A stretch of 64,000 nucleotides of DNA, from assembly GCF_003289945.1 (NCBI RefSeq), contig NZ_QMBP01000001.1:372001-436000 (forward strand), given 5' to 3'. Positions 1,318-44,128 of this stretch are shown piece after piece. The stretch's first letter is position 1; every line of letters starts with the position of its first letter. Below the pieces are notes generated by a model. That model saw only the letters and a program-made list of their open reading frames with translations. It did not search any database and was not told where the DNA came from. A program made the translations under genes and the position numbers. This DNA comes from Mesorhizobium hawassense (GTDB taxonomy: Bacteria > Pseudomonadota > Alphaproteobacteria > Rhizobiales > Rhizobiaceae).

Positions 1318-1983
1318 TCAGGAGAGTGTCAGGCCGAAAGGACTGAGCGCCTCGGCATAGCTTTGCGCCGGTCGGGCGACGTCGAAATGAACTGTGGGCA
1401 TGCCGGCGGCAATCGCGCCGTCGACATTGCGTTTCTGGTCGTCGACGAAGACGCAGGCCGAAAGCGGCAACTGCAGCGCCTCGCCAACCATCGCATAGGC
1501 GCGCGCGTCGGGCTTGAGGATTTTGGTATAGGTCGCGTCGACGATCGTCTCGAACAGCTCGAGCAGCGGCAGCCGCTCGCGAAAGGACTTGCCGTAGAAG
1601 AGGTCGAGCTCGTTGGAGAGGATGGCGAGCCGTATGCCGGCTTCATGCGCGATGTGGATCGCCCGCTCGGCCTGTGGCCGCACCACCGCCTGCGGATCGG
1701 CGCCGCGTGCCCGCTGCACGAAGGTCGACATGTCCTGCCAGTCTTCGCCGACCAATTGGGCGACTTCGCGCGTGCGCGTCTTCCAATAATCGCGCTCGCT
1801 GATCTCGTCGGCTTGCATCGAACACCATAAGGGATCGGAGGCGGGATCGAAAGGTCCGCGCCAGTCAAGCGTGCCGGGTTTTAGCCCCAGCGAGTGCTCG
1901 GTCAGCCCATGCGTCTCGAACAGCGTGCGGGTTACGACGCCGCCGAAGTCGAGCACCAGCGCCTGCGGTTTCACTTCGCTCAT
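1318..1983 (-). CDS. HAD-superfamily (subfamily IA-like) hydrolase
   Basis: A 221-residue haloacid dehalogenase-type hydrolase. Motif I is LDFGGVV with the nucleophile aspartate near residue 12. The usual second acid of phosphatase-type HADs (DxD) is replaced by glycine, as in a subset of subfamily IA that includes the epoxide hydrolase N-domain and various phosphatases. Motif II is the serine in AILSNE, the motif III lysine lies in TKILKPDARAY, and motif IV is FVDDQKRN. Its ATG overlaps the stop of the upstream UPF0261 gene by 4 nt, so the two are translationally coupled. The substrate is unknown. The context suggests a catabolic intermediate, but that is inference. Confidence 0.85.
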   Translation of the reverse strand: MSEVKPQALVLDFGGVVTRTLFETHGLTEHSLGLKPGTLDWRGPFDPASDPLWCSMQADEISERDYWKTRTREVAQLVGEDWQDMSTFVQRARGADPQAVVRPQAERAIHIAHEAGIRLAILSNELDLFYGKSFRERLPLLELFETIVDATYTKILKPDARAYAMVGEALQLPLSACVFVDDQKRNVDGAIAAGMPTVHFDVARPAQSYAEALSPFGLTLS

Positions 1984-3239
1984 GCCGCCCGCCTGCCGGT
2001 CACGCCGGGCGGCACGATGCCTTCGGCCACCCAGCGGTCGAAGATCTCCAGCGCTTTGGCGCTGAAGGCGGCATCATTGATGTGGCCGGCGATCTCATGC
2101 AACTCGGCATTATCGGGCACACGCACCCGCATCTCCTCGACAAACGCCGCAAGTGCCTCGGGTTCGTGGAGCGGTTCGCCTTCCTGGTCCCATTGCTGGA
2201 TACCGCCGACCGGCAAGATGAACGCCGTCGCGCCGGTCGCCGTGGCAAGCTTTTCGCCGATGGCACGCGCGATCTCCTGGCGTGTCGCGCCGTCGGAGGT
2301 GACCGAGGCGAGCAGCCGGTTATGCGCATGATAGGGCCGCTCGGTGAAGCGCGACGGCACGGCCTGCCAGGTCGGGAAATCGACCATGTCGATGGCGCCT
2401 GGCGCGACGATCTGCGGAATGCCCTGGCGTCCGGCATTCTCCAGCCGGTCGGTGCCCGAATTCACCACCGAGCCGGTGAGCTGGTTGGCGAGTTCCTGCA
2501 GGCTGAAATCGAGCACCGCGACGAAGCCCTTCTGCGCCGCGATCGCCTCCAGCGCTCGCCCACCCATGCCGGTGGTGTGGAAAACGATGACCTCATAGCC
2601 GCGTTTTTCCAATTCCGGCTTCAGCGTCACCATGTACTGAAGGCAGCTCTTTCCCAGCGAGCTCATGCCGATGCGCGGCCTGGACCGATCGGGCTTCACG
2701 ACGGCCCGGGCAGCCCCCACCACCGCGCCGCAGGCCTGCGACAGCACCGCCTTGCAGGCGCTGTTGAGGCCGTAAAGTCCGCCGGCCCACAGGATCATCA
2801 TCAAGTCGGTGGCGATCCGTTCTGGCGGCACGAGATGCGAATAGGCGATCGTCGAGACGACGAATTTCGGCACGCCGAGCGGCAGCGCAAGCGCAACGTC
2901 GAGCGCAAGATCGGTGCCCATTGTGCCGCCCAGCGCGATGAAGCCCTCGATATTGCCCTCGTCATGCAGTGAGCGCGCGAGCCGCGAGGCGCCGAGCGCC
3001 ATCAAGGTCATCGCCGTATTCTCGTCACCGCTGGCGATGATCGCCTCGACCGTCCTGCCGGCGGCTTTGGCCACGGCATGGCGGTCATGCTCCGGCCTGT
3101 AGGGCGGATCGCCAAGCACGCTCACGTCCATCATCACGGCGACGCCGCCTACGGCCTCGATGCGCTCGCGCATGAACAGAAGCTCGTCGGCCTTGGTGTC
3201 GCCGGTGCCGATAACCAGGATTCGGCGTTTCTCCTCCAC
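1980..3239 (-). CDS. Tm-1-like / UPF0261 family protein
   Basis: A 419-residue member of the UPF0261 (Tm-1-like ATP-binding) family, named after the tomato Tm-1 protein. The N-terminal IGTGDTKADEL motif and GTMGTDLAL glycine-rich loop are family hallmarks, and the length is normal. Members usually sit in catabolic operons in rhizobia; their reaction is not well established. The start is GTG, preceded by GGGAG about 6 nt upstream. It lies 30 nt downstream of an IclR regulator gene and overlaps the HAD gene, so it is probably co-transcribed with both. Confidence 0.85.
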   Translation of the reverse strand: MEEKRRILVIGTGDTKADELLFMRERIEAVGGVAVMMDVSVLGDPPYRPEHDRHAVAKAAGRTVEAIIASGDENTAMTLMALGASRLARSLHDEGNIEGFIALGGTMGTDLALDVALALPLGVPKFVVSTIAYSHLVPPERIATDLMMILWAGGLYGLNSACKAVLSQACGAVVGAARAVVKPDRSRPRIGMSSLGKSCLQYMVTLKPELEKRGYEVIVFHTTGMGGRALEAIAAQKGFVAVLDFSLQELANQLTGSVVNSGTDRLENAGRQGIPQIVAPGAIDMVDFPTWQAVPSRFTERPYHAHNRLLASVTSDGATRQEIARAIGEKLATATGATAFILPVGGIQQWDQEGEPLHEPEALAAFVEEMRVRVPDNAELHEIAGHINDAAFSAKALEIFDRWVAEGIVPPGVTGRRAA

Positions 3240-3269
3240 GTCAATCTCCCTGCAGTCTCTTGTTGGTTG

Positions 3270-4034
3270 TTATGCCCGTTTCTGGCCGGGCAGGCGGCCG
3301 AACAGCCGCTCGCCGATCTCGCGACCCGCAGCGATCACACTGACGCCGAGCCGCTCGATATCGCCCTTTTGCGTTCGCACGCGCGGCGCCGCCACGGCGA
3401 TGGCACCGAGGGCGTGGCCGTCGGCGCCGAGGATCGGTGCGGCGACGCTCATCACGCCTTCCTCGAAACCCTGCGCGCCGATCGAATGGCCGCGCGCGCG
3501 GGCAGCGGCGACATGGTCGGCGAGCGTATCTGCATCGCCGATGGTGAAGGTGGTGAAGGCGGGCATCGGGCCGGCCAGTATGCGTTGCCGGATGCGTTCC
3601 TCGGTGAAGGCCAGGAACACGATGCCGGACGCCGTCGCATGCATCGGCAGCACCGCGCCGAGCGGCACGCTGACCCGGTTGGCCTTGGCGGATTCGACGA
3701 CGTGGACGGAGATCAGCCCGCGCTTAGAATATTCTGAAAGATGCACCGTCTCGCCGGTCTCGGCAGCCAGCGCCTCGACGACCGGCACCGCCATGCGCAG
3801 GAAGGGGAACTGCGCCTCGCGCATCAGCGCCAGCCGCGTCAGGCCGGCGCCGAGGCGGTAAAAGCGCGTCGTCTCGTCCTGCTCGACCAACCCTTGCGCA
3901 ATCAGCGAAACCAGCAGCCGGCGCACCGTCGCCTTGTCGAAGCCGGCGGCCTTGGCAATATCGGCAAGCGCTGACTCGGGCGCGCCGCTGCCCAGCAGCT
4001 CCAGCAGCGAAATGGCTTTGGCCACCGTGCTCAT
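3270..4034 (-). CDS. IclR-family transcriptional regulator
   Basis: A 254-residue IclR-type regulator. Residues 1 to about 60 form the winged helix-turn-helix (KAISLLELL...DIAKAAGFDKATVRRLL). The rest is the effector-binding domain with the typical LSEYSKRGLISVHVVES and ASGIVFLAF segments. It probably controls its own operon and the divergent permease-P450-aldehyde dehydrogenase operon. It is clearly paralogous to the IclR gene at 23041-23787: both start MSTV-KA-SLLEL, and a near-identical 30-bp block lies just upstream of each start. The effector is unknown. Confidence 0.93.
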   Translation of the reverse strand: MSTVAKAISLLELLGSGAPESALADIAKAAGFDKATVRRLLVSLIAQGLVEQDETTRFYRLGAGLTRLALMREAQFPFLRMAVPVVEALAAETGETVHLSEYSKRGLISVHVVESAKANRVSVPLGAVLPMHATASGIVFLAFTEERIRQRILAGPMPAFTTFTIGDADTLADHVAAARARGHSIGAQGFEEGVMSVAAPILGADGHALGAIAVAAPRVRTQKGDIERLGVSVIAAGREIGERLFGRLPGQKRA

Positions 4035-31957: not shown

Positions 31958-31981
31958 GCGCCCTTTTATTGGGGCGTAAAC

Positions 31982-32017
31982 TTTGCGACGACTGGAGCTA
32001 CACCGGCGCGTCGCAAA
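31982..32017. promoter_or_regulatory. Inverted repeat TTTGCGACG-N18-CGTCGCAAA before the SWIM gene
   Basis: Perfect 9-bp inverted repeat in the short region between the GH63-like gene and the five-gene SWIM-MoxR-VWA block. It could be an operator or a transcript hairpin controlling the block. Its presence argues that SWIM translation starts downstream of it rather than at the TTG at 31983. Confidence 0.5.
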
Positions 32018-32063
32018 CGGCTATCTATCGTTGCGGAATCATGCTTCGGGGGTGAGGCGCGGC

Positions 32064-33464
32064 TTGCAGCTGGATTTGAAAACAATCGAGGCGCTTGCTC
32101 CCGACCAGGCCTCGCTTGGCGCAGCCGCGAAGCTGACCAAGCGCTCGAACTGGCCCCGGCTTGAAGCGTATGAGCATCTGCCGCTGATCTGGGGCGAATG
32201 CCAGGGCTCGGGCTCCAATCCCTACCGCGTTGCCTTCGACACGTCGGATCACGGCTATAAATGCACCTGTCCCTCGCGGAAATTCCCCTGCAAGCACATA
32301 CTGGCGCTGGCGTGGATCGGCGCCACGGCACCAGACAGCTTCGCGCTCGTCGACCAGACGCCCGACTGGGTCAACGATTGGCTCGGCCGGCGCCGCAAGC
32401 CCGGCCAGTCTCCAATACCGGCCGCGGCCGGTTCCGAGGGCAAAAGCATCGACGAAGCCACGCGGCCCGCGGAAAGCGCGCCGGTAGAGGACACGGCTGC
32501 CGCGGAACGCCGCGAGGCGACGCAGCGCAAGCGGGCGGAGGACACGCGAAGCGCGGTTTCTGCCGCGCTTGACGAGCTCGACCAGTGGATCGCCGACCAA
32601 CTGCGGCTCGGCCTTGCCGGCTTTGTCGATGCCTCGAGCGAGCGCTGCCGCCGCATCGCGGCGAGGCTTGTCGACCTGAAGGCGACGGCGCTCGCCGGTC
32701 GCATCGACGAATTGCCGGCGCGGCTGATGGCGCTGCGCGGCGAGGAGCGGCCGGACGCTGCGATCCGCGAGCTGGGCAAGCTGGTGCTGCTTGCCAAGGC
32801 CTGGCGCGCCGCGCCCGACGATGCCGAATTGAAACGTCTGGTCTCGACATCGGAGACGCGCGACCAGATCCTCGCCAATCCCGATGCGATCCAAGTGGAA
32901 AGTGACTGGGAAGTGCTCGGCGAGAAGATCGAGACCCGCCGCGACGGCCTCGTCAGCCACGCGACCTGGCTGTTAGATCTTGGGAGCACAACCCCGCGCT
33001 TTGCTCTGTTGCTCGATTTCTTCCCGGCTTCGGCCGGCCGGCGGTCCGGTGCTTTCGCGCCAGGGGACCGCTTCAAAGCGAGGCTGGTGTTCTATCCGTC
33101 GCGCAATCCGCTCCGGGCCCTGGTCGCGGAACGGCTGGGCGATGTGGTGGCCGGTGCATGGCCAGTGTTCGCTCCGAACACGGCCGGCGATCCGCTGGCC
33201 GCCTATGCCGCCTTTCAGGACGGCGCGCCATGGCTGGCCGAATGCCCGGTCATCCTGCCGGCCGGTGCGATCGCGCTGGACGAAAAGGAGGGCGCCTGGT
33301 GGCAGGCGGCAAGCGATCCGCACGGCATTGCCCTGCCTGTCGCGGGCTCCGTCAGCCAGACTTTGCTTGGGCTGGATCTCGCGGCGACGGCAGCGCTCTG
33401 GAACGGCGCCAGGCTCGAGCTTCTGGCCTCGCAAAGCAGCATCGGGAGGCTCGATCTGTCATGA
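32064..33464 (+). CDS. SWIM zinc-finger protein (YehQ-like)
   Basis: A 466-residue cytoplasmic protein. The SWIM zinc-binding motif CTCPSRKFPCKH (C67, C69, C76, H78) lies near the N-terminus, followed by an alanine/glutamate-rich linker and a long helical and mixed C-terminal region. SWIM motifs bind DNA or proteins. The TTG at 32064 is chosen because GGTGAGG precedes it and family members begin at this point (QLDLKTIEALAPDQAS); GTG at 32052 and TTG at 31983 are also in frame. Its stop overlaps the next ATG by 4 nt. The gene resembles E. coli yehQ in its gene neighbourhood. Function is not established. Confidence 0.85.
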   Translation: MQLDLKTIEALAPDQASLGAAAKLTKRSNWPRLEAYEHLPLIWGECQGSGSNPYRVAFDTSDHGYKCTCPSRKFPCKHILALAWIGATAPDSFALVDQTPDWVNDWLGRRRKPGQSPIPAAAGSEGKSIDEATRPAESAPVEDTAAAERREATQRKRAEDTRSAVSAALDELDQWIADQLRLGLAGFVDASSERCRRIAARLVDLKATALAGRIDELPARLMALRGEERPDAAIRELGKLVLLAKAWRAAPDDAELKRLVSTSETRDQILANPDAIQVESDWEVLGEKIETRRDGLVSHATWLLDLGSTTPRFALLLDFFPASAGRRSGAFAPGDRFKARLVFYPSRNPLRALVAERLGDVVAGAWPVFAPNTAGDPLAAYAAFQDGAPWLAECPVILPAGAIALDEKEGAWWQAASDPHGIALPVAGSVSQTLLGLDLAATAALWNGARLELLASQSSIGRLDLS

Positions 33465-34906
33465 GCGAGCTCGATCAAGCCGGACTGGCGCGGTTGCGCG
33501 ACGGCTGGATTTCGGGTGGCGCGGCTTTCGAGCTTGCGCCCGCCGAATGGAAGGAGGTCGCCTCGGCTGCCAGCCCCGACGAACAGGAGCGGCGGCTGTT
33601 GGCCATCGCCGCGCAGGCGCTTGATGTCGCGCTTCGCCCGGCCGCGCCGAAAACGTTGAAGCGGCGCCAGCCGCTGCCGGTTCTGGCCTTGCCGATGCTC
33701 CCTGAACGGCTACGGCCGTTGCTGCGTGCGGCGCTGAAATATGCAGCCGATGCGAGGCTCAAGACGCGCGTGGCCACGCTCGTCGCCAGCCGCGGCTTCG
33801 TCACCCATCCCATGGACTGGATGCCCGCCGCATCCGACCAAGCCGCCCCGGAGGTCTATGCCCCCTGGGTCGACTGGCAGGCTGGCGCGGATGGCGAAAA
33901 GCACTCCCGACGCGAACAGCTGACGGCGGAAACCTGGGATGATTTCTATCCCGCAGCGCGCCGCATTGCTTTGGCCGATTTGCGGCGCGCCGCGCCTGCT
34001 TTGGCAAGGACGCTGATTGAGACCAAAGGGGCAAGCGAACCGGCGGAGGTCAGGCTCGCCCTTATTGAACTCATGCGTGTCGGCTTGAGCGCCGACGACA
34101 TTTCGTTCCTGAAAAGCCTCTCTGCCGATCGCTCGGGCAAGGTGCGGGAAATGGCGGGCCGGCTGCTGGCAAGGTTGGGGGAGCGTGGCAATCCAACGGA
34201 TGCCGGGCCGCAAGATCCGACAGCCGAGCTGGCCGCTTTCATCGAGGAAGGCAAATCCGGCTTCCTTCGCCGCCGTACCACCTACGCACCGATAAAACTC
34301 AAGTCGCCCGCGCAACAGGCCCGTCGCGCCGACTTGTTCGCTTCCTGCTACTTCGGCGATCTCGTCGCCCGCTTCGGCAAGACAGAGCCTGATTTGATCG
34401 GCGCATGGCAGTTCGGCGTCGATGACAATGCCGATCGTTTTCTCGTTCTAATGGTCTCGGTGTCCGGCAGCGATGCGGCGGTGGCCTGTTTGGCGGATAT
34501 GCTCGTCGCCGAAGGCGGCAAGCTGACGCTTCTCGTCCTCCAGCTCATGTTGCGTTTGGACAGCGGCAGGAAGCGTCTCCTGATCAGGCAGATCCTGAAT
34601 GACGCGCAGAATCTGCACGCGCTCAACTTGGTCGAAGGCGCGGAGGCAGGCTGGCTGGAATGGGGCGACCTCGCAAACGGCAAGACGCTTTCGGCGCTGC
34701 GCTCCGCCGTCTCGGGTGACAACGACGTCATGAAACGAAGCGCCGAGCAGTATATCGAGGCCATAGGTTTTCTCGCCACGGCGGCGACGGCGGAGAAACT
34801 AATCGGCGACGTCGTCGCCGCCGGCCTGCCGCCCGCATCCCCATCGCTCGGCCTGTTGCGGCTCAACGCGGCGCTGGCCGAAAATCGTTCCCAATCCGAC
34901 AGATGA
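33461..34906 (+). CDS. DUF5691-family helical protein of the SWIM-MoxR-VWA cluster
   Basis: A 481-residue, largely helical protein matching the DUF5691 family by position and character. Its middle holds HEAT-like stretches (VRLALIELMRVGLSADDISF; VREMAGRLLARLG), consistent with a scaffold. No catalytic motif, signal peptide or membrane segment is seen. It overlaps the SWIM gene by 4 nt and lies 19 nt before the MoxR gene, so translation is coupled. The family label is from context and moderate similarity and should be checked with a profile search. Confidence 0.75.
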   Translation: MSELDQAGLARLRDGWISGGAAFELAPAEWKEVASAASPDEQERRLLAIAAQALDVALRPAAPKTLKRRQPLPVLALPMLPERLRPLLRAALKYAADARLKTRVATLVASRGFVTHPMDWMPAASDQAAPEVYAPWVDWQAGADGEKHSRREQLTAETWDDFYPAARRIALADLRRAAPALARTLIETKGASEPAEVRLALIELMRVGLSADDISFLKSLSADRSGKVREMAGRLLARLGERGNPTDAGPQDPTAELAAFIEEGKSGFLRRRTTYAPIKLKSPAQQARRADLFASCYFGDLVARFGKTEPDLIGAWQFGVDDNADRFLVLMVSVSGSDAAVACLADMLVAEGGKLTLLVLQLMLRLDSGRKRLLIRQILNDAQNLHALNLVEGAEAGWLEWGDLANGKTLSALRSAVSGDNDVMKRSAEQYIEAIGFLATAATAEKLIGDVVAAGLPPASPSLGLLRLNAALAENRSQSDR

Positions 34907-34925
34907 TCAATCCGGAGAAGATCGC

Positions 34926-36005
34926 ATGAACGCAGCCATCCGCCTCCCGGCCGAGCAGGTCTATGCCGCCGAACTGCAGGCGCTCGCGCGCGGCGACGAT
35001 CGCCAGAAGCCCGCCGGCTGGAGCCTGTCGCCCAAGGCCGTGCTGACCTATCTGATGGGCGGCAAGGCGAGCGACGGCACGGTGATTTCGCCGAAATATG
35101 TCGGACGCCGGCAATTGATGGAAACGGCGGTCGCCACGCTCGCGACCGACCGCGCGCTGCTTCTGCTCGGCGTCCCAGGGACGGCGAAATCCTGGGTCTC
35201 GGAACATCTCGCTGGCGCCATCATGGGCAATTCGACGCTGGTCGTGCAATGCACCGCCGGCACCGACGAGAACCAGATCCGTTATGGCTGGAATTATGCC
35301 CAGCTTTTGGCAAAGGGGCCGAGCCAGGAGGCGCTGGTGCCGACGCCGCTCTACCGCGCCATGCAGGACGGCAAGCTCTGCCGCTTGGAAGAATTGACGC
35401 GCATGGGCTCCGATGTGCAGGACACGCTGATCACCGTGCTGTCGGAAAAGATGATGCCGGTGCCGGAGCTGAACACCTCCATCTACGCGCAGCGCGGCTT
35501 CAACATCATCGCCACCGCCAACAACCGCGACAAGGGCGTCAACGAGCTCTCCTCGGCGCTGAAGCGGCGCTTCAACGTCGTGGTGCTGCCTTTGCCGGAC
35601 GACATGGCGGAAGAAGTCTCGATCGTCTCCCGGCGCGTCGGCGAGATGGCCGGTGGGCTGGACCTGCCGGTGCCGAAGAATGTCGGCGAGGAGATCGCCC
35701 GCGTGCTCACCATTTTCCGCGAGCTGCGCTCGGGCGCGACCGCAGACGGCAAGGTGACTTTGAAGACGCCGTCCGGCTCGCTGTCCACCGCCGAGGCGAT
35801 CGCCACGATGGTCAGCGGCCTCAGCCAGGCGGCATGGTTCGACGACGGCAAGTTGCATGCCGAAGGCCTAGCGCCGAGCCTTGTCGGCGCCATCGTCAAG
35901 GACCCGGTGCAGGACAAGGTCGTGCTCGAGGAATATCTGGAGACGGTGCTGAAGAAGCGGCCGGATTATGCCGGCTACTACGCGGCGCTCAATGCGGCCA
36001 TCTGA
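34926..36005 (+). CDS. MoxR-type AAA+ ATPase (YehL-like)
   Basis: A 359-residue AAA+ ATPase. Walker A is GVPGTAKS (82-89). The Walker B position reads LCRLEE (151-156), with glutamate in place of the usual first aspartate. Sensor 1 is ATANNRD (about 196-202) and an arginine-finger candidate is in ALKRRF (211-216). MoxR ATPases work as chaperones with VWA proteins, inserting cofactors or remodelling targets; a VWA protein is encoded two genes downstream. GGAGAAGATCGC precedes the ATG. The best-known relative by layout is E. coli YehL. Confidence 0.9.
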   Translation: MNAAIRLPAEQVYAAELQALARGDDRQKPAGWSLSPKAVLTYLMGGKASDGTVISPKYVGRRQLMETAVATLATDRALLLLGVPGTAKSWVSEHLAGAIMGNSTLVVQCTAGTDENQIRYGWNYAQLLAKGPSQEALVPTPLYRAMQDGKLCRLEELTRMGSDVQDTLITVLSEKMMPVPELNTSIYAQRGFNIIATANNRDKGVNELSSALKRRFNVVVLPLPDDMAEEVSIVSRRVGEMAGGLDLPVPKNVGEEIARVLTIFRELRSGATADGKVTLKTPSGSLSTAEAIATMVSGLSQAAWFDDGKLHAEGLAPSLVGAIVKDPVQDKVVLEEYLETVLKKRPDYAGYYAALNAAI

Positions 36006-36008
36006 GCC

Positions 36009-38267
36009 ATGACGCAAGGCGGCATCAGCTATTTCGGCATTCGCCACCACGGGCCGGGCTCCGCCGAGAGCCTGGTCAAGGCGTTGCGGGAATTGCAGCC
36101 CTTCGCCGTGCTGATCGAAGGGCCGGTCGATGCCTCGCCGCTGCTGCCGCTGCTCGCCAGCCCCGACATGAAGCCGCCGGTGGCGCTGCTTTGCTATCCG
36201 GAGGACGATCCCGCCGCAACCAGCTTCTGGCCCTTCGCCGAATTCTCGCCGGAATATCAGGCTGCACTTTGGGCCGTCGCCAACGGGGCGGCGCTGCGCT
36301 TCATCGACCTGCCGTCCGCCGCACGGCTCGCCGAGCAGGCGCCTGAAGGGTCAGCGGACACTGAAGCAGCCGAGGCAGAAGTCACAGAAAAGCAGGCCGA
36401 GGAACCCACGCGCATCCAGGATCCGATCGGCACTTTGGCGCGCGCCGCCGGCTATGAGGACGGCGAGAGCTGGTGGTCGGACATCATCGAGCAGAATCCC
36501 GAACCCGGCCCGATCTTCGCGGCCATCGCCGACGCGATGACGACGCTGCGCGACGGCGAGGGCGCGATCGGCAAGTTCGAGGCGATGCGCGAGGCGCATA
36601 TGCGGCTCGAGATCGCCGCCGCGCGGAAAGAATTCGAAGGCCCGCTGGCCGTCGTCTGCGGCGCCTGGCATGTGCCGGCCTTGCAGGCGGCGCACACGCA
36701 AAAGAGCGACCAGGCGCTGCTCAAGGGTATCGGCCGGCGCAAGACCACGATGACTTACGCGCCTTGGACCGGACCGCGCCTGGCGCTGGGCTACGGCTAC
36801 GGCGCCGGCGTCGTCGCGCCCGGATGGTGCAAGCATCTGTGGCAGACGCGCGGGCAGGGCGACGCCTCGGTCCTGTGGCTCGCGCGCATCGCCTCGGTGC
36901 TTCGCGCCAAGGGCCACATGATCTCGACCGCCTCCCTGATCGAAGCGGAGCGTCTCGCCCGCGCGCTTGCCGCCATCCGCGAGCGGCCGAAGCCGGGCTT
37001 CGAGGAACTGCGCGATGCCTCGATCTCGGCCCTCTTCAACGGCGAGGCCCTGCTGTGGAAGATGGTCGAGGCCGAGCTGCTGCTCGGCGCCGATGTCGGC
37101 GAGATTCCGCCCGACACCCCGCTGGCGCCGCTGATCGACGACTTGCAGCGCAACCAGAAGGCGGCCCGGCTGAAGCCCGAGGCGCTGGAGCGGGAGCTTT
37201 CGGTCGACCTGCGCAGCGAGAGCGGGCTGTTTCGCTCGACATTGCTGCACCGGCTGAACGTGCTTGGCGTCAGCTGGGGCAGGCTGACGGATGTCGGCCG
37301 CAGCCGCGGCACGTTCCGCGAGCGCTGGATGCTGGCCTGGCAGCCGGAATATGCCGTCCGCCTGGTCGAGAACCTGGTCTACGGACCGACCATCGAGAAG
37401 GCCGCCAATGGCCGGCTGATCCAAATGATCGGCGCTGCCGCGACGCTCGATGCTCTGGCCACGCTGGTGCAAAGCGCGATCACGGCGGCATTGAGCGAAG
37501 CATCCGCCGCTGGCCTCGCGGCGCTCGAGGAAAAGGCGGCGCACAGCAGCGAGTGCCTGGAACTGCTGGCCTCGGTGCCGCCGCTGGCCGACATCATCCG
37601 CTACGGCGAAGCCCGCAAGACCGAGACGGAGCGCCTCGCCGGCCTGCTGGAACGGCTGATCATCGAGGGTTCCATCGCGCTGCCTTATGCGGCGCGCGAT
37701 CTCGACGCGCAGGCCGCAGCCGCGCTGATGGCAGCACTGCGCAAGGCCGACGGGGCGATCAAGCTGGTCGAACCGGGCGAGCATGTCCTGGAGGCTTGGC
37801 GTAACGGACTGGCGGCCGTGCTCGATTCGTCGCGTTCCACGGCGCTGGTCGCCGGCTGCGCCGCGCATCTGCTCTACGAGGCCGGGCGACTCTCAGCGGA
37901 TGAGACCGCCAACCTCCTGGCAAAGCGCCTGTCGCCGGGGACTCCCGTTCTCGATGCGGCTGCCTTCTTCGAAGGTTTCTTCAGCGGCGCCGGCCAGCGG
38001 CTGATCTACGACGAGGGTTTGCGTGGCGCCGTCGACGCCTGGCTGGCATCGCTCGACGAGGAGGCTTTCGTGGCGCATCTGCCGCTGCTGCGCCGCGTCT
38101 TCTCCAATCTCGACAGCATGGAGCGCCGCCGCCTGATCGAGGCCGTGCTCGGCAAGAGAGCGAGCCTGCCCGCCGGGCTCAAGCCCGCGCCGGACGGCGG
38201 CGAGGCATGGCGCAGGCATTTCGCTCTCCTCGGCAAGCTGCTTGCGGGGGAGGCCAGCCATGGTTGA
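36009..38267 (+). CDS. DUF5682-family protein (YehM-like) of the MoxR-VWA cluster
   Basis: A 752-residue protein. The N-terminus carries SYFGIRHHGPGSA (H13, H14) and VLIEGP (E37), the signature of DUF5682. The pattern recalls the ChaN/TraB/erythromycin-esterase group, where paired histidines and a glutamate form a hydrolytic or metal site. That similarity is an inference from the motif. A second conserved segment reads VVCGAWHVPAL. The remaining 450 residues are mostly helical. It starts 3 nt after the MoxR stop and overlaps the VWA gene by 8 nt. The name YehM-like is from synteny. Confidence 0.82.
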   Translation: MTQGGISYFGIRHHGPGSAESLVKALRELQPFAVLIEGPVDASPLLPLLASPDMKPPVALLCYPEDDPAATSFWPFAEFSPEYQAALWAVANGAALRFIDLPSAARLAEQAPEGSADTEAAEAEVTEKQAEEPTRIQDPIGTLARAAGYEDGESWWSDIIEQNPEPGPIFAAIADAMTTLRDGEGAIGKFEAMREAHMRLEIAAARKEFEGPLAVVCGAWHVPALQAAHTQKSDQALLKGIGRRKTTMTYAPWTGPRLALGYGYGAGVVAPGWCKHLWQTRGQGDASVLWLARIASVLRAKGHMISTASLIEAERLARALAAIRERPKPGFEELRDASISALFNGEALLWKMVEAELLLGADVGEIPPDTPLAPLIDDLQRNQKAARLKPEALERELSVDLRSESGLFRSTLLHRLNVLGVSWGRLTDVGRSRGTFRERWMLAWQPEYAVRLVENLVYGPTIEKAANGRLIQMIGAAATLDALATLVQSAITAALSEASAAGLAALEEKAAHSSECLELLASVPPLADIIRYGEARKTETERLAGLLERLIIEGSIALPYAARDLDAQAAAALMAALRKADGAIKLVEPGEHVLEAWRNGLAAVLDSSRSTALVAGCAAHLLYEAGRLSADETANLLAKRLSPGTPVLDAAAFFEGFFSGAGQRLIYDEGLRGAVDAWLASLDEEAFVAHLPLLRRVFSNLDSMERRRLIEAVLGKRASLPAGLKPAPDGGEAWRRHFALLGKLLAGEASHG

Positions 38268-39495
38268 TGAAGCTACCGGGCCGAAGCTCGATCCGACGGG
38301 AGACAACAGGGAGCGCCGCTGGCGGCTGGCGATCGGCGCCGACGATGAGTCTTCATCCGCGCTGTCGGCCGAGGACCGGCGACTGTCGGCGGCGCTAGAT
38401 GCGCTCTATGGCGACGGCAGCGGCGACACCGCCGGCGACCCGCGCAAGCGGCGTGGCGGGCTCGGCCGTTCGGCGCCGCGCGTCGCGCAATGGATGGGCG
38501 ATATCCGATCGTTCTTCCCCGAGCAGGTCGTCCAGGTGGTGCAGAAGGACGCCTTCGAGCGGCTCAACCTGAAACAGATGCTGATGGAGCCGGAGTTCCT
38601 CAAGGCGATCGAGGCTGACGTCAATCTCGTCGCCGATCTGATCTCGCTGCGCTCGGCGATGCCGGACAAGACCAAGGATATCGCCCGCTCGATCATTGCC
38701 GACATCGTCGCCAAGCTGATGCAGCGCCTGGAGCAGAAGACCGCCGAGGCTATCCGCGGCGCGCTCGACAAGTCGCGGCGCACCAACCGGCCGCGCCAGC
38801 GCGACATCGACTGGCCGCGCACGATCACGGCCAACCTTCGCCACTACCAGCCGGACCACAAGACCGTGGTGCCGGAAAAGCTCGTCGGCTTCATGCGCCG
38901 CCAGCGCCGGCTGGTCGACCTCGACGAGGTGACGCTCTGCGTCGACCAGTCCGGCTCGATGGCAAGCTCGGTCATCTACGCCTCGATCTTCGCCGCGGTA
39001 ATGGCCTCGCTACCGGTGGTGCGGACGAAACTCGTCTGCTTCGACACCGCGATCGTCGACTTGACCGAAGAGCTCAGCGATCCCGTCGAGGTGCTGTTTG
39101 GCGTCCAGCTCGGCGGCGGCACCGATATCAACCAGGCGGTCGCCTATTGCGCCGAACGCATCGAGCGGCGGACCAAGGCGCATTTCGTGCTGATCACCGA
39201 TCTCTACGAAGGCGGCAACGGCAAGGAGCTCTTGCAAAGGCTGGCGACGCTCGTCCGTTCGGGCGTCAACGTCATCGTTCTCCTGGCGCTCACAGACCAA
39301 GGGCGTCCCGGCTACGATCCGTCGATGGCGGGGTCTGTCGCGGCGCTGGGCATTCCCGTCTTTGCCTGCACGCCCGACCATTTCCCGGACATGATGGCGG
39401 CCGCGCTGCGCCGCGAGGACATCGGCGCCTGGGCAGCTGGGGCCGACATCAAGCTGATCCGCGCCGACGCTGAAACGCCGAACGCCGCCGAATAG
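38260..39495 (+). CDS. VWA-domain protein (YehP-like), partner of the MoxR ATPase
   Basis: A 411-residue protein. A helical N-terminal part with a basic segment (RKRRGG, RRTNRPRQRD) precedes a C-terminal von Willebrand A domain. The metal-ion-dependent adhesion site is intact: DQSGS (D229, S231, S233), GGGTDINQA and ITDLYEGG. The VWA domain probably binds the MoxR ATPase. The ATG at 38260 is preceded by GGGGGAGGCC and overlaps the DUF5682 stop. It is the last gene of the block; a terminator hairpin overlaps its stop codon. Confidence 0.9.
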   Translation: MVDEATGPKLDPTGDNRERRWRLAIGADDESSSALSAEDRRLSAALDALYGDGSGDTAGDPRKRRGGLGRSAPRVAQWMGDIRSFFPEQVVQVVQKDAFERLNLKQMLMEPEFLKAIEADVNLVADLISLRSAMPDKTKDIARSIIADIVAKLMQRLEQKTAEAIRGALDKSRRTNRPRQRDIDWPRTITANLRHYQPDHKTVVPEKLVGFMRRQRRLVDLDEVTLCVDQSGSMASSVIYASIFAAVMASLPVVRTKLVCFDTAIVDLTEELSDPVEVLFGVQLGGGTDINQAVAYCAERIERRTKAHFVLITDLYEGGNGKELLQRLATLVRSGVNVIVLLALTDQGRPGYDPSMAGSVAALGIPVFACTPDHFPDMMAAALRREDIGAWAAGADIKLIRADAETPNAAE

Positions 39496-39522
39496 CCCTC
39501 GGCGGCGTTCGGGACGACTTTT
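39478..39522 (+). terminator. Rho-independent terminator overlapping the VWA stop codon
   Basis: Perfect 14-bp stem CCGAACGCCGCCGA / TCGGCGGCGTTCGG with a 7-nt loop, then TTTT at 39519-39522. The left arm encodes the last residues of the VWA protein and the TAG lies in the loop. It closes the five-gene unit. Confidence 0.85.
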
Positions 39523-41768: not shown

Positions 41769-42863
41769 TCACCCCCGCTCCGGGAACATCGCCTTCAGCC
41801 CCTCACGCGAGGCTTTCGCCACACCGCGCTCTGTGATGAGCCCGGTCACCAGCCTTGCCGGCGTCACGTCGAAGGCCGGGTTGGCGGCCGGCGTGGCATC
41901 CGGCGAGACGCGCACCTGTGCGATCTTGCCGTCCGCCGTCTTGCCCCAGACCAGCGACACCTCATCGCCGGAGCGCTCCTCGATCGGGATTTCGGCCAGC
42001 CCGTCGGTCACGGTCCAGTCGATGGTGGGCGAGGGCAGCGCGACGTAGAAGGGCACGTCATTGTCGGCTGCGGCCAGCGCCTTCAGATAGGTGCCGATCT
42101 TGTTGCAGACGTCGCCATTGGCGGTGGTGCGGTCTGTGCCGACGATGACCATGTCGATGTCGCCATGCTGCATCAGATGGCCGCCGGCATTGTCGACGAT
42201 GAGCGTGTGCGGCACGCCGTGGCCGGCCATTTCCCAGGCGGTCAGCTGGGCGCCCTGGTTGCGCGGCCTGGTCTCGTCGACGTAGACATGCACGGGAATA
42301 CCGGCCTCCGTCGCCAGATAGATCGGCGCGGTGGCGGTGCCGTAGTCGACCGTTGCCAGCCAGCCGGCATTGCAATGGGTGAGGATGTTGACGCTCTCGC
42401 CCTGCTGCTTGCGCGCCGCGATCTCTTTGATGATGGCAAGCCCGTTCTCACCGATGGCGCGATTTAAGCCCACATCCTCGTCGGCGATCTCGGCGGCGCG
42501 CCGGTAGGCGGCCTCGGCGCGCTCTTCGGGCGCCAGCGGCTTGAGGAAGCGCCGCATCTCGTCCAGTGCCCAACGCAGATTGATCGCTGTCGGCCGCGTC
42601 CTGTTGAGCGTTTCCCACACCGCGTCGAGCGCTTCGTCCGACGGATCGTCCTTCATCTGGATGGCGACGCCATAGGCTGCTGTGACGCCGATCAGCGGCG
42701 CGCCGCGCACCCACATGTCGCGGATGGCGGTGGCGACGCCTGCAACCGTTCCTATCGTCTCGACGCGGAACTCATGCGGCAGCCAGCGCTGGTCGATGAT
42801 CTCGACCGACCGCTTGTCGTCGCTGAGCCAGATGGTGCGGTAGTGGCGTTCGCCGACGTTCAA
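41769..42863 (-). CDS. mtnA: S-methyl-5-thioribose-1-phosphate isomerase
   Basis: A 364-residue enzyme that converts methylthioribose 1-phosphate to methylthioribulose 1-phosphate in methionine salvage. The eIF2B-like fold is shown by [32 protein letters not shown] (catalytic cysteine), [19 protein letters not shown] and [20 protein letters not shown] (catalytic aspartate). The start is TTG at 42863, overlapping the mtnK stop (TTGA), with GGGAG 8 nt upstream, so the two are coupled. No mtnB, mtnC or mtnD is visible nearby. Confidence 0.96.
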
Positions 42864-44128
42864 ATTCTGTTCTCCCGTTCGATCAGCGCGGCGAGATTGT
42901 TGACCTCGTCGATGCTGTGGATCTGGCGCCGGTTGACGGCGATATGGCGGCCGAAGCGCAAAGCCTTGGCCTCACATCTGGCGCGCAGGTCTTGATCGGC
43001 AATGGTTTCGAAATCGGCGTTATGGGCCAGCCCGAGGATGCGCCGGTGCACCTCGATGCCGGCGAAGCCGAGCAGGTCGGTCCAGATCGAATGCAGCATG
43101 TGATCGAGCGCCTGTTCGGCGCCGAGCAGATCGCCCTGATCCTCGAACAGGCTTTTCTGGTAGAGCATGCCGCTGCGCTCGGTGCGCCACAGATGCGAGA
43201 ATTCGGCGCGGAAGGTTGCCCAGGTCTCGGCCGTGACGCCGAGCAGATAGGCGCGCATCGGCGCGCGGCTGCCCTTTTCCTCATGGCCGCGCTGCGAGAA
43301 GAAGGCCATCCAGAAATTGGCAAGCAGCATGCCGACGTCGAAGGCGATCGGGCCGTAGAAGGCGAACTCCGGATCGATCATCCGGGTCTCGGTGTCGGTG
43401 ACCATGATCGAGCCCGAATGCAAATCGCCATGCAGCAGCGTCTCGGCATTGGCGGCGAAGAGATGCTTCAGCCGCTGTGCCTCCACCTTGAGGTCGCGGT
43501 CGGCGCGCAGTTCGGCCACCAGGCCGTCGAGCTGCGGGCTGGTGTGCCGGTTCATTTTGGCGTCGAAATAGGGATCGGAGAACACCAGGTTCTCGGTGAT
43601 GTCGCAGAGCTCGACATTGTCGGCGAACAGCGCGAGATCGGCCTTGCGATCCTTTGCCGCCATCGCCAGGTCCGAACCGCGGAACAGCGTGCGGGCCATG
43701 AACAGGCCGATGTCGGGCGCGATATTCGGCAATTCGCGCCCGTCGATCAGCGCGCGCCTGAGGATGACGTGCGGCGGCGCCAGATACTCCATGACGATCA
43801 GCGCCTGGCTCTCGTCGAAATGATAGATCGCCGGCACCGAGCCGGGCGCCCGGCGCTCCTGCCTGGTAAGCGCATGATATTCGAAGAAGGAACGCTTGAG
43901 CGGCAGCGGCCAGCTGTCGCCGACCAGCCGCACATAGGGCAGTGCCTGTTTCACCACCGCCGCGCCCTGGTCGCCCTCGACGATGAAGACGAGGTTCAAA
44001 TTGCCGTCGCCGACCTCGCGTACCTTCCAGCGGCCGGCATCCTTGCCGATGCGCTCGGTCAGCGCCGCGGTCCCGCCAAGGCGCTTCGGCAGTGTCTCCA
44101 CCGACAATGCTTCGAACTTTCCGGTCAT
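42860..44128 (-). CDS. mtnK: S-methyl-5-thioribose kinase
   Basis: A 422-residue kinase that phosphorylates methylthioribose to its 1-phosphate. It has the choline kinase-like fold: GDGNLNLVF (nucleotide loop), the catalytic [11 protein letters not shown] and the metal-binding [11 protein letters not shown]. The ATG at 44128 follows GGAGGGGAGAGA; a longer frame to 44224 would cross the divergent promoter. It is the first gene of mtnK-mtnA. Confidence 0.96.

Follow-up and report, generated by a model that had tools for sequence, protein, structure and literature searches.

MoxR-type AAA+ ATPases act together with partner proteins that carry a von Willebrand factor A (VWA) domain, and the characterised pairs, such as NorQD (PMC13036017) and RavA-ViaA (PMC3893208), serve separate enzyme complexes. 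In NorQD a finger of the VWA protein is inserted into the pore of the MoxR ring, and a twist of its linker, driven by ATP hydrolysis, is proposed to let iron into nitric oxide reductase (PMC13036017). Seven subfamilies of MoxR proteins have been named, and YehL is among them (PMC3893208). Here we analyse an operon with a MoxR gene of the YehL type in a 64,000-nucleotide stretch of Mesorhizobium hawassense DNA (contig NZ_QMBP01000001.1, positions 372,001 to 436,000), the whole of which we call the window. Five plus-strand genes form this tight operon at 32064-39495, and they encode a SWIM zinc-finger protein (A), a DUF5691 protein (B), a MoxR ATPase (C), a DUF5682 protein (D) and a VWA protein (E). 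To our knowledge, no client or activity has been described for the YehL subfamily. What is new in our results is that the first 260 residues of DUF5682 very probably form a TraB/TIKI-superfamily domain, a predicted hydrolase, and that systems of this kind split into two classes, which would have a motor-plus-hydrolase core in common while their other proteins are exchanged. The genes and the parts of them on which the argument draws are the following.

32064..33464, plus strand: gene A, SWIM zinc-finger protein (Pfam SWIM; start set by relatives, the open reading frame being open from 31983)
32262-32297, plus strand: SWIM motif CxC-x6-CxH of gene A (sequence motif)
about 32874-33158, plus strand: possible OB-like (oligonucleotide/oligosaccharide-binding) fold of gene A, after a helical middle (model fold matches)
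33461..34906, plus strand: gene B, DUF5691 protein, 481 amino acids (Pfam PF18944; sole match in its genome)
34926..36005, plus strand: gene C, YehL-type MoxR AAA+ ATPase, 359 amino acids (Pfam AAA_5, E 7.3e-38; bpMoxR, E 2e-6)
35169-35192, plus strand: P-loop GVPGTAKS of gene C (motif)
36009..38267, plus strand: gene D, DUF5682 protein, 752 amino acids (Pfam PF18934; sole match in its genome)
36009..36788, plus strand: predicted TraB/TIKI-superfamily domain of D, residues 1-260 (hhalign with controls, invariant residues, alternation of strands and helices in the model)
37188..38156, plus strand: helical-repeat part of D, residues 394-716 (model and VIA alignment)
38260..39495, plus strand: gene E, VWA (CoxE-like) protein, 411 amino acids (Pfam VWA_CoxE)
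38944-38958, plus strand: start of the metal ion-dependent adhesion site (MIDAS), DxSGS, of gene E (motif)

The original prediction, made from the letters of the DNA and a list of its reading frames, had taken DUF5682 for a large helical protein and nothing else. That description fails for residues 1-260, in which strands and helices alternate in the structure model (mean predicted local distance difference test score, pLDDT, 81.9 for the whole chain). The pattern G-x-R-H-H, E, D, R-E-x-x-M, G-x-x-H in this part suggested TraB. A DUF5682 profile of 46 N-terminal domains was compared by hhalign with profiles whose rows came from searching genomes with PF01963, PF05139, PF04187 and one TraB protein. 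Against TraB (26 rows) the alignment reached a probability of 91.7 and a score of 52.3 over 219 columns, collinear from the first motif to the last, and H13, E37, D100, R194 and H221 fell on the TraB motif residues; after duplicate removal the score was 51.9. As controls, 72 other families gave at most 21.9 (25.4 for rows of class 2, the second of the two classes described below), reversed TraB 12.8, reversed DUF5682 17.4 and 40 column shuffles at most 23.3. Viewed in reverse, from TraB, DUF5682 came first of 73 families at 58.5, the next scoring 27.6. Two yardsticks from within the superfamily put these values in scale: TraB scored 43.9 with ChaN, which is named in the TIKI superfamily (PMC6254334), and 30.4 with EreA. 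DUF5682 itself scored 37.3 with GumN-type proteins and 32.1 with ChaN (46.1 for class-2 rows).

The residues of these motifs are also the fixed ones of the domain. R12, H13, H14, E37, E82, D100, R194, E195, M198, G218 and H221 are invariant in the 84-86 class-1 loci and 10/10 class-2 loci that have a letter at the position, and the rows counted were not selected by motif. The TIKI superfamily is marked by two GX2H-type motifs and an acidic residue that follows strand 2, for which the alignment gives H13, G218 with H221, and E37. The G of the first GX2H is kept in 83/84 class-1 and 4/10 class-2 loci, with P in the remaining 6/10. Peptidases and esterases are described in this superfamily, their site being of the His/Glu kind and some of them working without metal (PMC6254334, PMC12329661). 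DUF5682 is not named in the literature searched, and no paper among the matches listed brings MoxR together with TraB or TIKI.

Several results weigh against placing DUF5682 in this superfamily. Pfam's own TraB model is below detection on it, the relationship being found by profile-profile comparison only. An early try with 4 TraB rows gave a probability of 67 over 71 columns, and GumN-type rows gave 76 over 36 columns; a larger GumN set gave 54. Class 1 alone scored 45.7 against TraB over 63 columns one way and 222 with the roles swapped, and class 2 alone scored 39.9 with one alignment of its rows and 48.4 with another. EreA scored at background with DUF5682 (20.2), TraB itself reaching EreA with no more than the 30.4 given above. 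Searches of the PDB by hmmsearch with the D and D N-terminal profiles found no relative. When the whole D model was submitted to Foldseek and VIA, the matches listed were helical repeats at residues 394-716, with no TIKI structure among them, which by the tool's own guidance is no sign of absence; the fold of residues 1-260 is not confirmed by structure because the helical part filled the match lists, and the best VIA Z for that part, 8.6, is inside the tool's chance range for helical repeats. A close relationship of DUF5682 to erythromycin esterases was considered and rejected on the EreA score.

The protein that carries this putative hydrolase domain belongs to a real, conserved five-gene unit kept together by distant bacteria. 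A scan of a species-genome collection with the window's DUF5682 returned 115 relatives. We retained the 79 best loci among them, a choice that biases the set to class 1, the five-gene type. By profile searches, 72 of these loci have A-B-C-D-E complete and in this order on a single strand, and the other seven (L041, L071, L075, L082, L094, L095 and L100) end at a contig edge. Extra pieces occur in four of the 72 complete loci (L038, L078, L081, L085). The same five genes stand in order in 7/7 class-1 loci from our genome samples. Alpha- and Gammaproteobacteria and two Pirellula (Planctomycetes) are among the sources of the complete loci, and two actinomycetes among those of the cut ones. In a phylum sample of 299 genomes, drawn evenly, DUF5682 is present in 12, six of them with the five-gene type, and DUF5691 rises above its cut-off in exactly those six, two other genomes having sub-threshold matches; the gene A profile is strong in the same six, matches one more genome over 168 positions and is weak in two. 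The co-occurrence of the five families, on which the original prediction depended, therefore stands after this synteny survey, both in the complete loci and in 6/6 of these genomes. When distance matrices are compared pairwise among the five proteins for 31 diverse loci, they correlate at 0.81-0.92, with 500 permutations each at or below 0.51, values in which common descent and co-evolution are not separated. No natural fusions among the five proteins were present in the loci examined.

A second class shares the C-D-E part of this arrangement. Nine further sample loci and E. coli K-12 have DUF5682 with MoxR and no match to the A or B profiles. A VWA gene is present in 8/9 of these loci and in E. 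coli; the ninth (L111) ends at a contig edge, and in L113 the VWA gene lies past two DUF4132 reading frames. Near the set there is a relative of DUF4132 (YehI) in 8/9 loci and in E. coli, while a YehQ relative was detected in three of the nine by single-sequence search (L110, L112, L116) and in seven by iterated profile. Since C-D-E are common to both, the core of the two classes is MoxR, DUF5682 and VWA. In E. coli, YehL is 42% identical to C, YehM 28% to D and YehP 34% to E, and gene C scores 244 bits pairwise with YehL as against 32 and 25 bits (22-25% identity) with the two AAA_3-type MoxR proteins of its own genome. On these comparisons gene C is a YehL-type MoxR, with the DUF5682 (YehM) and VWA (YehP) genes next in order. 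The likeness to E. coli yehLMPQ that had been proposed thus survives in part: the window's genes form a conserved MoxR-VWA operon that is related to yehL, yehM and yehP and occurs as a unit, and the E. coli genes are of a sister type, with DUF4132 and no DUF5691, rather than the same set. Judged from the proteins compared, the known YehL-type MoxR-VWA system has two sister architectures, that of the yeh set and, as the second, that of the window's operon.

The exchanged proteins were also compared with one another. Gene A and YehQ align with an hhalign probability of 11 and a score of 34.0, under the best control at 37.3, and a homology of DUF5691 with DUF4132 found no support (score 23.9). 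Both classes occur at separate sites in two genomes, as L104 and L107 in one (G196) and as L114 and L116 in the other (G324). In L107, L113 and L116 the class-2 set adjoins two or three consecutive DUF4132-type reading frames. Among the literature matches listed, DUF5691 is not named, and the names yehL/M/P/Q occur in two papers; DUF4132 is named in three papers of the literature searched.

The P-loop GxPGTAKS of gene C is found in 84/84 class-1 and 10/10 class-2 loci, as is L[KR]RRF, and its bpMoxR match lies just above the cut-off (27.5 against 27 bits). In gene E, DxSGSM is present in 85/85 class-1 and 9/9 class-2 loci and GGGT[DN]I in 83/85 and 9/9. By these motifs C is a MoxR AAA+ ATPase whose P-loop is conserved in every locus compared, and the VWA protein E has its MIDAS start intact. 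Other patterns, all written from the window's sequence, are less constant, a point against the remodelling machine proposed below: Walker B (81/84 class-1, 7/10 class-2), sensor 1, I[IV]AT[AS]N (60/84 and 4/10), and the third MIDAS pattern (77/85 and 2/9). For protein A the model has a mean pLDDT of 84.7, and in its SWIM part it resembles ZSWIM8 (Z 8.9 over 110 residues, rmsd 4.1). For residues 298-392, most of the matches ranked 3-50 are OB folds, among them SSB, PriB and RecO; their Z values of 5.1-6.4 fall in the range for which the tool warns of chance, which tells against the match, and the best Foldseek E was 0.02. Gene A may end in an OB-like fold, a weak lead toward nucleic acid binding. 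Searches of PDB sequences with the A and B profiles gave nothing useful.

We give about even chances to the reading that the operon encodes a single YehL-type remodelling machine with DUF5682 as its dedicated client or effector. As in NorQD, the VWA protein would reach with a finger into the pore of the MoxR hexamer, and it would grip D at the same time; ATP hydrolysis would then twist or open D, so that metal is loaded or the hydrolase site is switched on. The TraB-like site could subsequently cut a peptide or a related bond. The SWIM-OB protein, binding nucleic acid or protein, and DUF5691 might recognise the trigger or the substrate, and this recognition part would be the one exchanged between classes, for DUF4132 and a YehQ-type SWIM protein in the sister class. 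We know of no precedent for a TraB-type peptidase under the control of an AAA+ ring. If the NorQD model is transferred to the YehL type, the most likely client is DUF5682, which is constant there as the third protein; against this stands the possibility that C and E act on another client. Metal loading is a guess, since one TIKI-family endopeptidase is described as metal-independent (PMC6254334), a precedent that goes against this step. A more specific version, which we regard as rather improbable, is a nucleic-acid-triggered, ATP-gated protease: the DUF5682 peptidase would be held inactive in the MoxR-VWA complex until the SWIM-OB protein meets single-stranded DNA or RNA that is damaged or foreign, whereupon the peptidase would be set free or receive its metal, and the DUF4132 class (the E. 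coli yeh set and perhaps the WGR/DUF4132 genes of Deinococcus) would be its DNA-damage branch. In Deinococcus radiodurans a DUF4132 operon and a WGR gene go up on depletion of DdrO and not in irradiated cells that lack irrE (PMC8533742), and it is this single case that perhaps links the sister class to DNA damage.

Neither a defence nor a housekeeping role is established for the operon. That it is a conflict system, directed against phage or other invaders, seems unlikely to us; the TraB-like domain would then be a latent effector cutting host or phage proteins, the SWIM-OB protein a sensor of foreign nucleic acid and the MoxR-VWA pair an ATP-dependent threshold, along the lines that Kaur and co-workers put forward for other MoxR-VWA systems. 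Such a role would suit the patchy presence of DUF5682, which is found in 55/119 genomes of the genus, broken in two of them, besides the 12/299 of the phylum sample. The two broken copies, each in two pieces, lie at G501:C11:391295-393354 and G505:C68:34637-36711, and one has an internal TGA. Flanks vary as well: among 50 Mesorhizobium-like loci the aldolase gene adjoins the operon in 28, the upstream glycoside hydrolase is nearby in 11, and none of six flank probes is found in 15. Among 72,556 plasmid records, 27 carry relatives of DUF5682; several of them are chromosome-sized, and some of these replicons filed as plasmids are rhizobial. The P-loop of gene C and its marginal bpMoxR match point the same way, the variant GXXXTAKS being frequent in MoxR-vWA subsystems 3 and 4 of Kaur 2020 (PMC7159879). 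The operon had been likened beforehand to the MoxR-VWA class proposed as conflict or chaperone systems, and the likeness holds as far as this P-loop; the main text of the Kaur paper contains none of the words SWIM, yeh and TraB. Against a conflict role, PADLOC (2023 library) matched the five proteins at chance level only (best E 0.0078). Around 24 class-1 loci outside the genus, with 146/149 neighbour open reading frames covered, four PADLOC models appeared at E 1e-15 (mad3 with 2 members; two WYL models and PDC-M17B with a single member apiece), a raw count without a background rate, and the neighbour Pfam families listed (25 of 109) are mostly of metabolism, transport and regulation, with 2 integrase-core matches. 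No variable effector was seen, the same five families recurring in the 72 complete loci, and viral contigs scanned by two short patterns held no relative. A linkage to phage was rejected, with one relative in 50,697 phage records. That record (L221, MT835988.1, positions 1456-3564, 31% identity) is an unverified, unannotated 14-kb 'Bacteriophage sp.' scaffold from human faeces, which may be bacterial DNA.

The opposite role, a housekeeping-like assembly chaperone whose client enzyme is coded elsewhere and in which DUF5682 is an adaptor to the MoxR-VWA ring, strikes us as equally doubtful. It would follow the characterised pairs, which serve separate complexes, and no neighbour gene stood out as constant in the flanks examined. 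The same patchiness that suits a conflict system speaks against a core chaperone, since DUF5682 is missing from 64/119 genomes of the genus, and an adaptor needs no hydrolase-type set of motifs that is invariant across two diverged classes. That invariance also bears on a further explanation, in which the TraB-like domain is an inactive scaffold and the operon only remodels a partner of DUF5691 or of the SWIM protein. A TIKI-superfamily member without the catalytic set has been described (PMC6254334), and the first GX2H has P in place of G in 6/10 class-2 loci; the histidines and the acidic and basic residues of the motifs are nevertheless the same in every locus of both classes, and we consider an inactive domain very improbable. 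A remodelling machine acting on DUF5682 is the reading we prefer.

The layout of the operon agrees with most of what had been predicted from the DNA. All reading frames and junctions of the five packed genes were confirmed: A and B overlap by 4 nt (33461-33464), B and C are separated by 19 nt and C and D by 3 nt, and D and E overlap by 8 nt. The five family names also hold, each protein scoring above its Pfam cut-off (SWIM PF04434, E 5.5e-6; DUF5691 PF18944, 2.2e-17; AAA_5 PF07728, 7.3e-38; DUF5682 PF18934, 1e-210; VWA_CoxE PF05762, 1.9e-54); an NCBIfam scan of the five gave nothing above cut-off. A start of gene A at 31982 is rejected in favour of TTG 32064, which is the most likely start because relatives align from that point and the TTG is kept in the Mesorhizobium loci compared. 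The operon was also said to be preceded by a palindrome and closed by a terminator, for which the window has these two elements.

31982..32017, no strand assigned: upstream inverted repeat with 9-nt arms, TTTGCGACG / CGTCGCAAA, 18 nt between them (exact in sequence)
39478..39512, plus strand: terminator-like inverted repeat with perfect 14-nt arms and a 7-nt loop (overlaps the stop codon of E; TTTT seven bases further)

The palindrome is thus real in the window, and it is not general: exact 8-nt arms occur in 10/19 close Mesorhizobium loci, the window counted, and in 0/28 other Mesorhizobium-like loci, and 1.5% of 1000 shuffles of the window's stretch give such arms. The block upstream of the operon (31960-32064) is partly conserved in Mesorhizobium, and one lineage has a promoter-like TTCACA ... 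TATACT at the place of the palindrome's right arm. The repeat at the 3' end is likewise present, and a strict terminator scan does not list it. A LexA-type site upstream of the operon was rejected, the window's one GTTC-N7-GTTC, a site of the kind used by alphaproteobacterial LexA, being at 42858-42872 near other genes, with 1.55 expected by chance. Upstream lies, as predicted, a sugar operon of ABC-transporter and glycoside-hydrolase genes, and downstream, on the opposite strand, a fructose-bisphosphate aldolase gene. In one relative (L033) the glycoside hydrolase and the aldolase are both downstream, more than 6 kb off, so that the surroundings have been rearranged with the operon intact. 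The whole window is on a single contig of the 7.3-Mb M. hawassense genome, and the nearest named relatives are Mesorhizobium, with DUF5682 identity up to 96%. A foreign base composition of the operon was rejected, its G+C fraction of 0.63-0.69 overlapping that of the surroundings, 0.62-0.67.

Recognition of the probable TraB/TIKI domain gives the YehL subfamily, including that of E. coli K-12, a testable enzyme with named residues, and in it a first guess of the motor's substrate. Placed beside described systems, the operon is in each case partly familiar. With the beta-propeller subsystem of Kaur it shares a MoxR protein with a GXXXTAKS P-loop, an adjoining VWA gene and a third component. It differs in that Pfam scans of the five proteins find neither a beta-propeller nor an FtsH or effector domain, and in that the MIDAS start is intact; FtsH, iSTAND and VMAP were absent from all five by Pfam models, which are not the paper's own profiles, and since the VWA match extends to residue 377 of the 411 in gene E, no room is left there for a C-terminal beta-propeller. 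NorQ/NorD and CoxD/CoxE likewise pair a MoxR ATPase with a VWA partner, and gene E matches VWA_CoxE; those pairs serve metalloenzymes, nitric oxide reductase being one, whereas the constant third protein here is TraB-like. With the TraB/PrgY/TIKI superfamily (PF01963), DUF5682 shares motif positions in its residues 1-260, which align with TraB over their whole length, in a protein that falls below the Pfam model, continues into a long helical region after the domain and is coded in a MoxR-VWA operon. The E. coli yehI/L/M/P/Q set has DUF4132 (yehI) upstream, its SWIM gene last and no DUF5691-type profile match nearby, and YehQ has the SWIM motif in common with gene A, their wider homology scoring within the control range. 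It is nonetheless the nearest counterpart, with MoxR, DUF5682 and VWA in the same order, homology over nearly their full length and a SWIM protein in the set.

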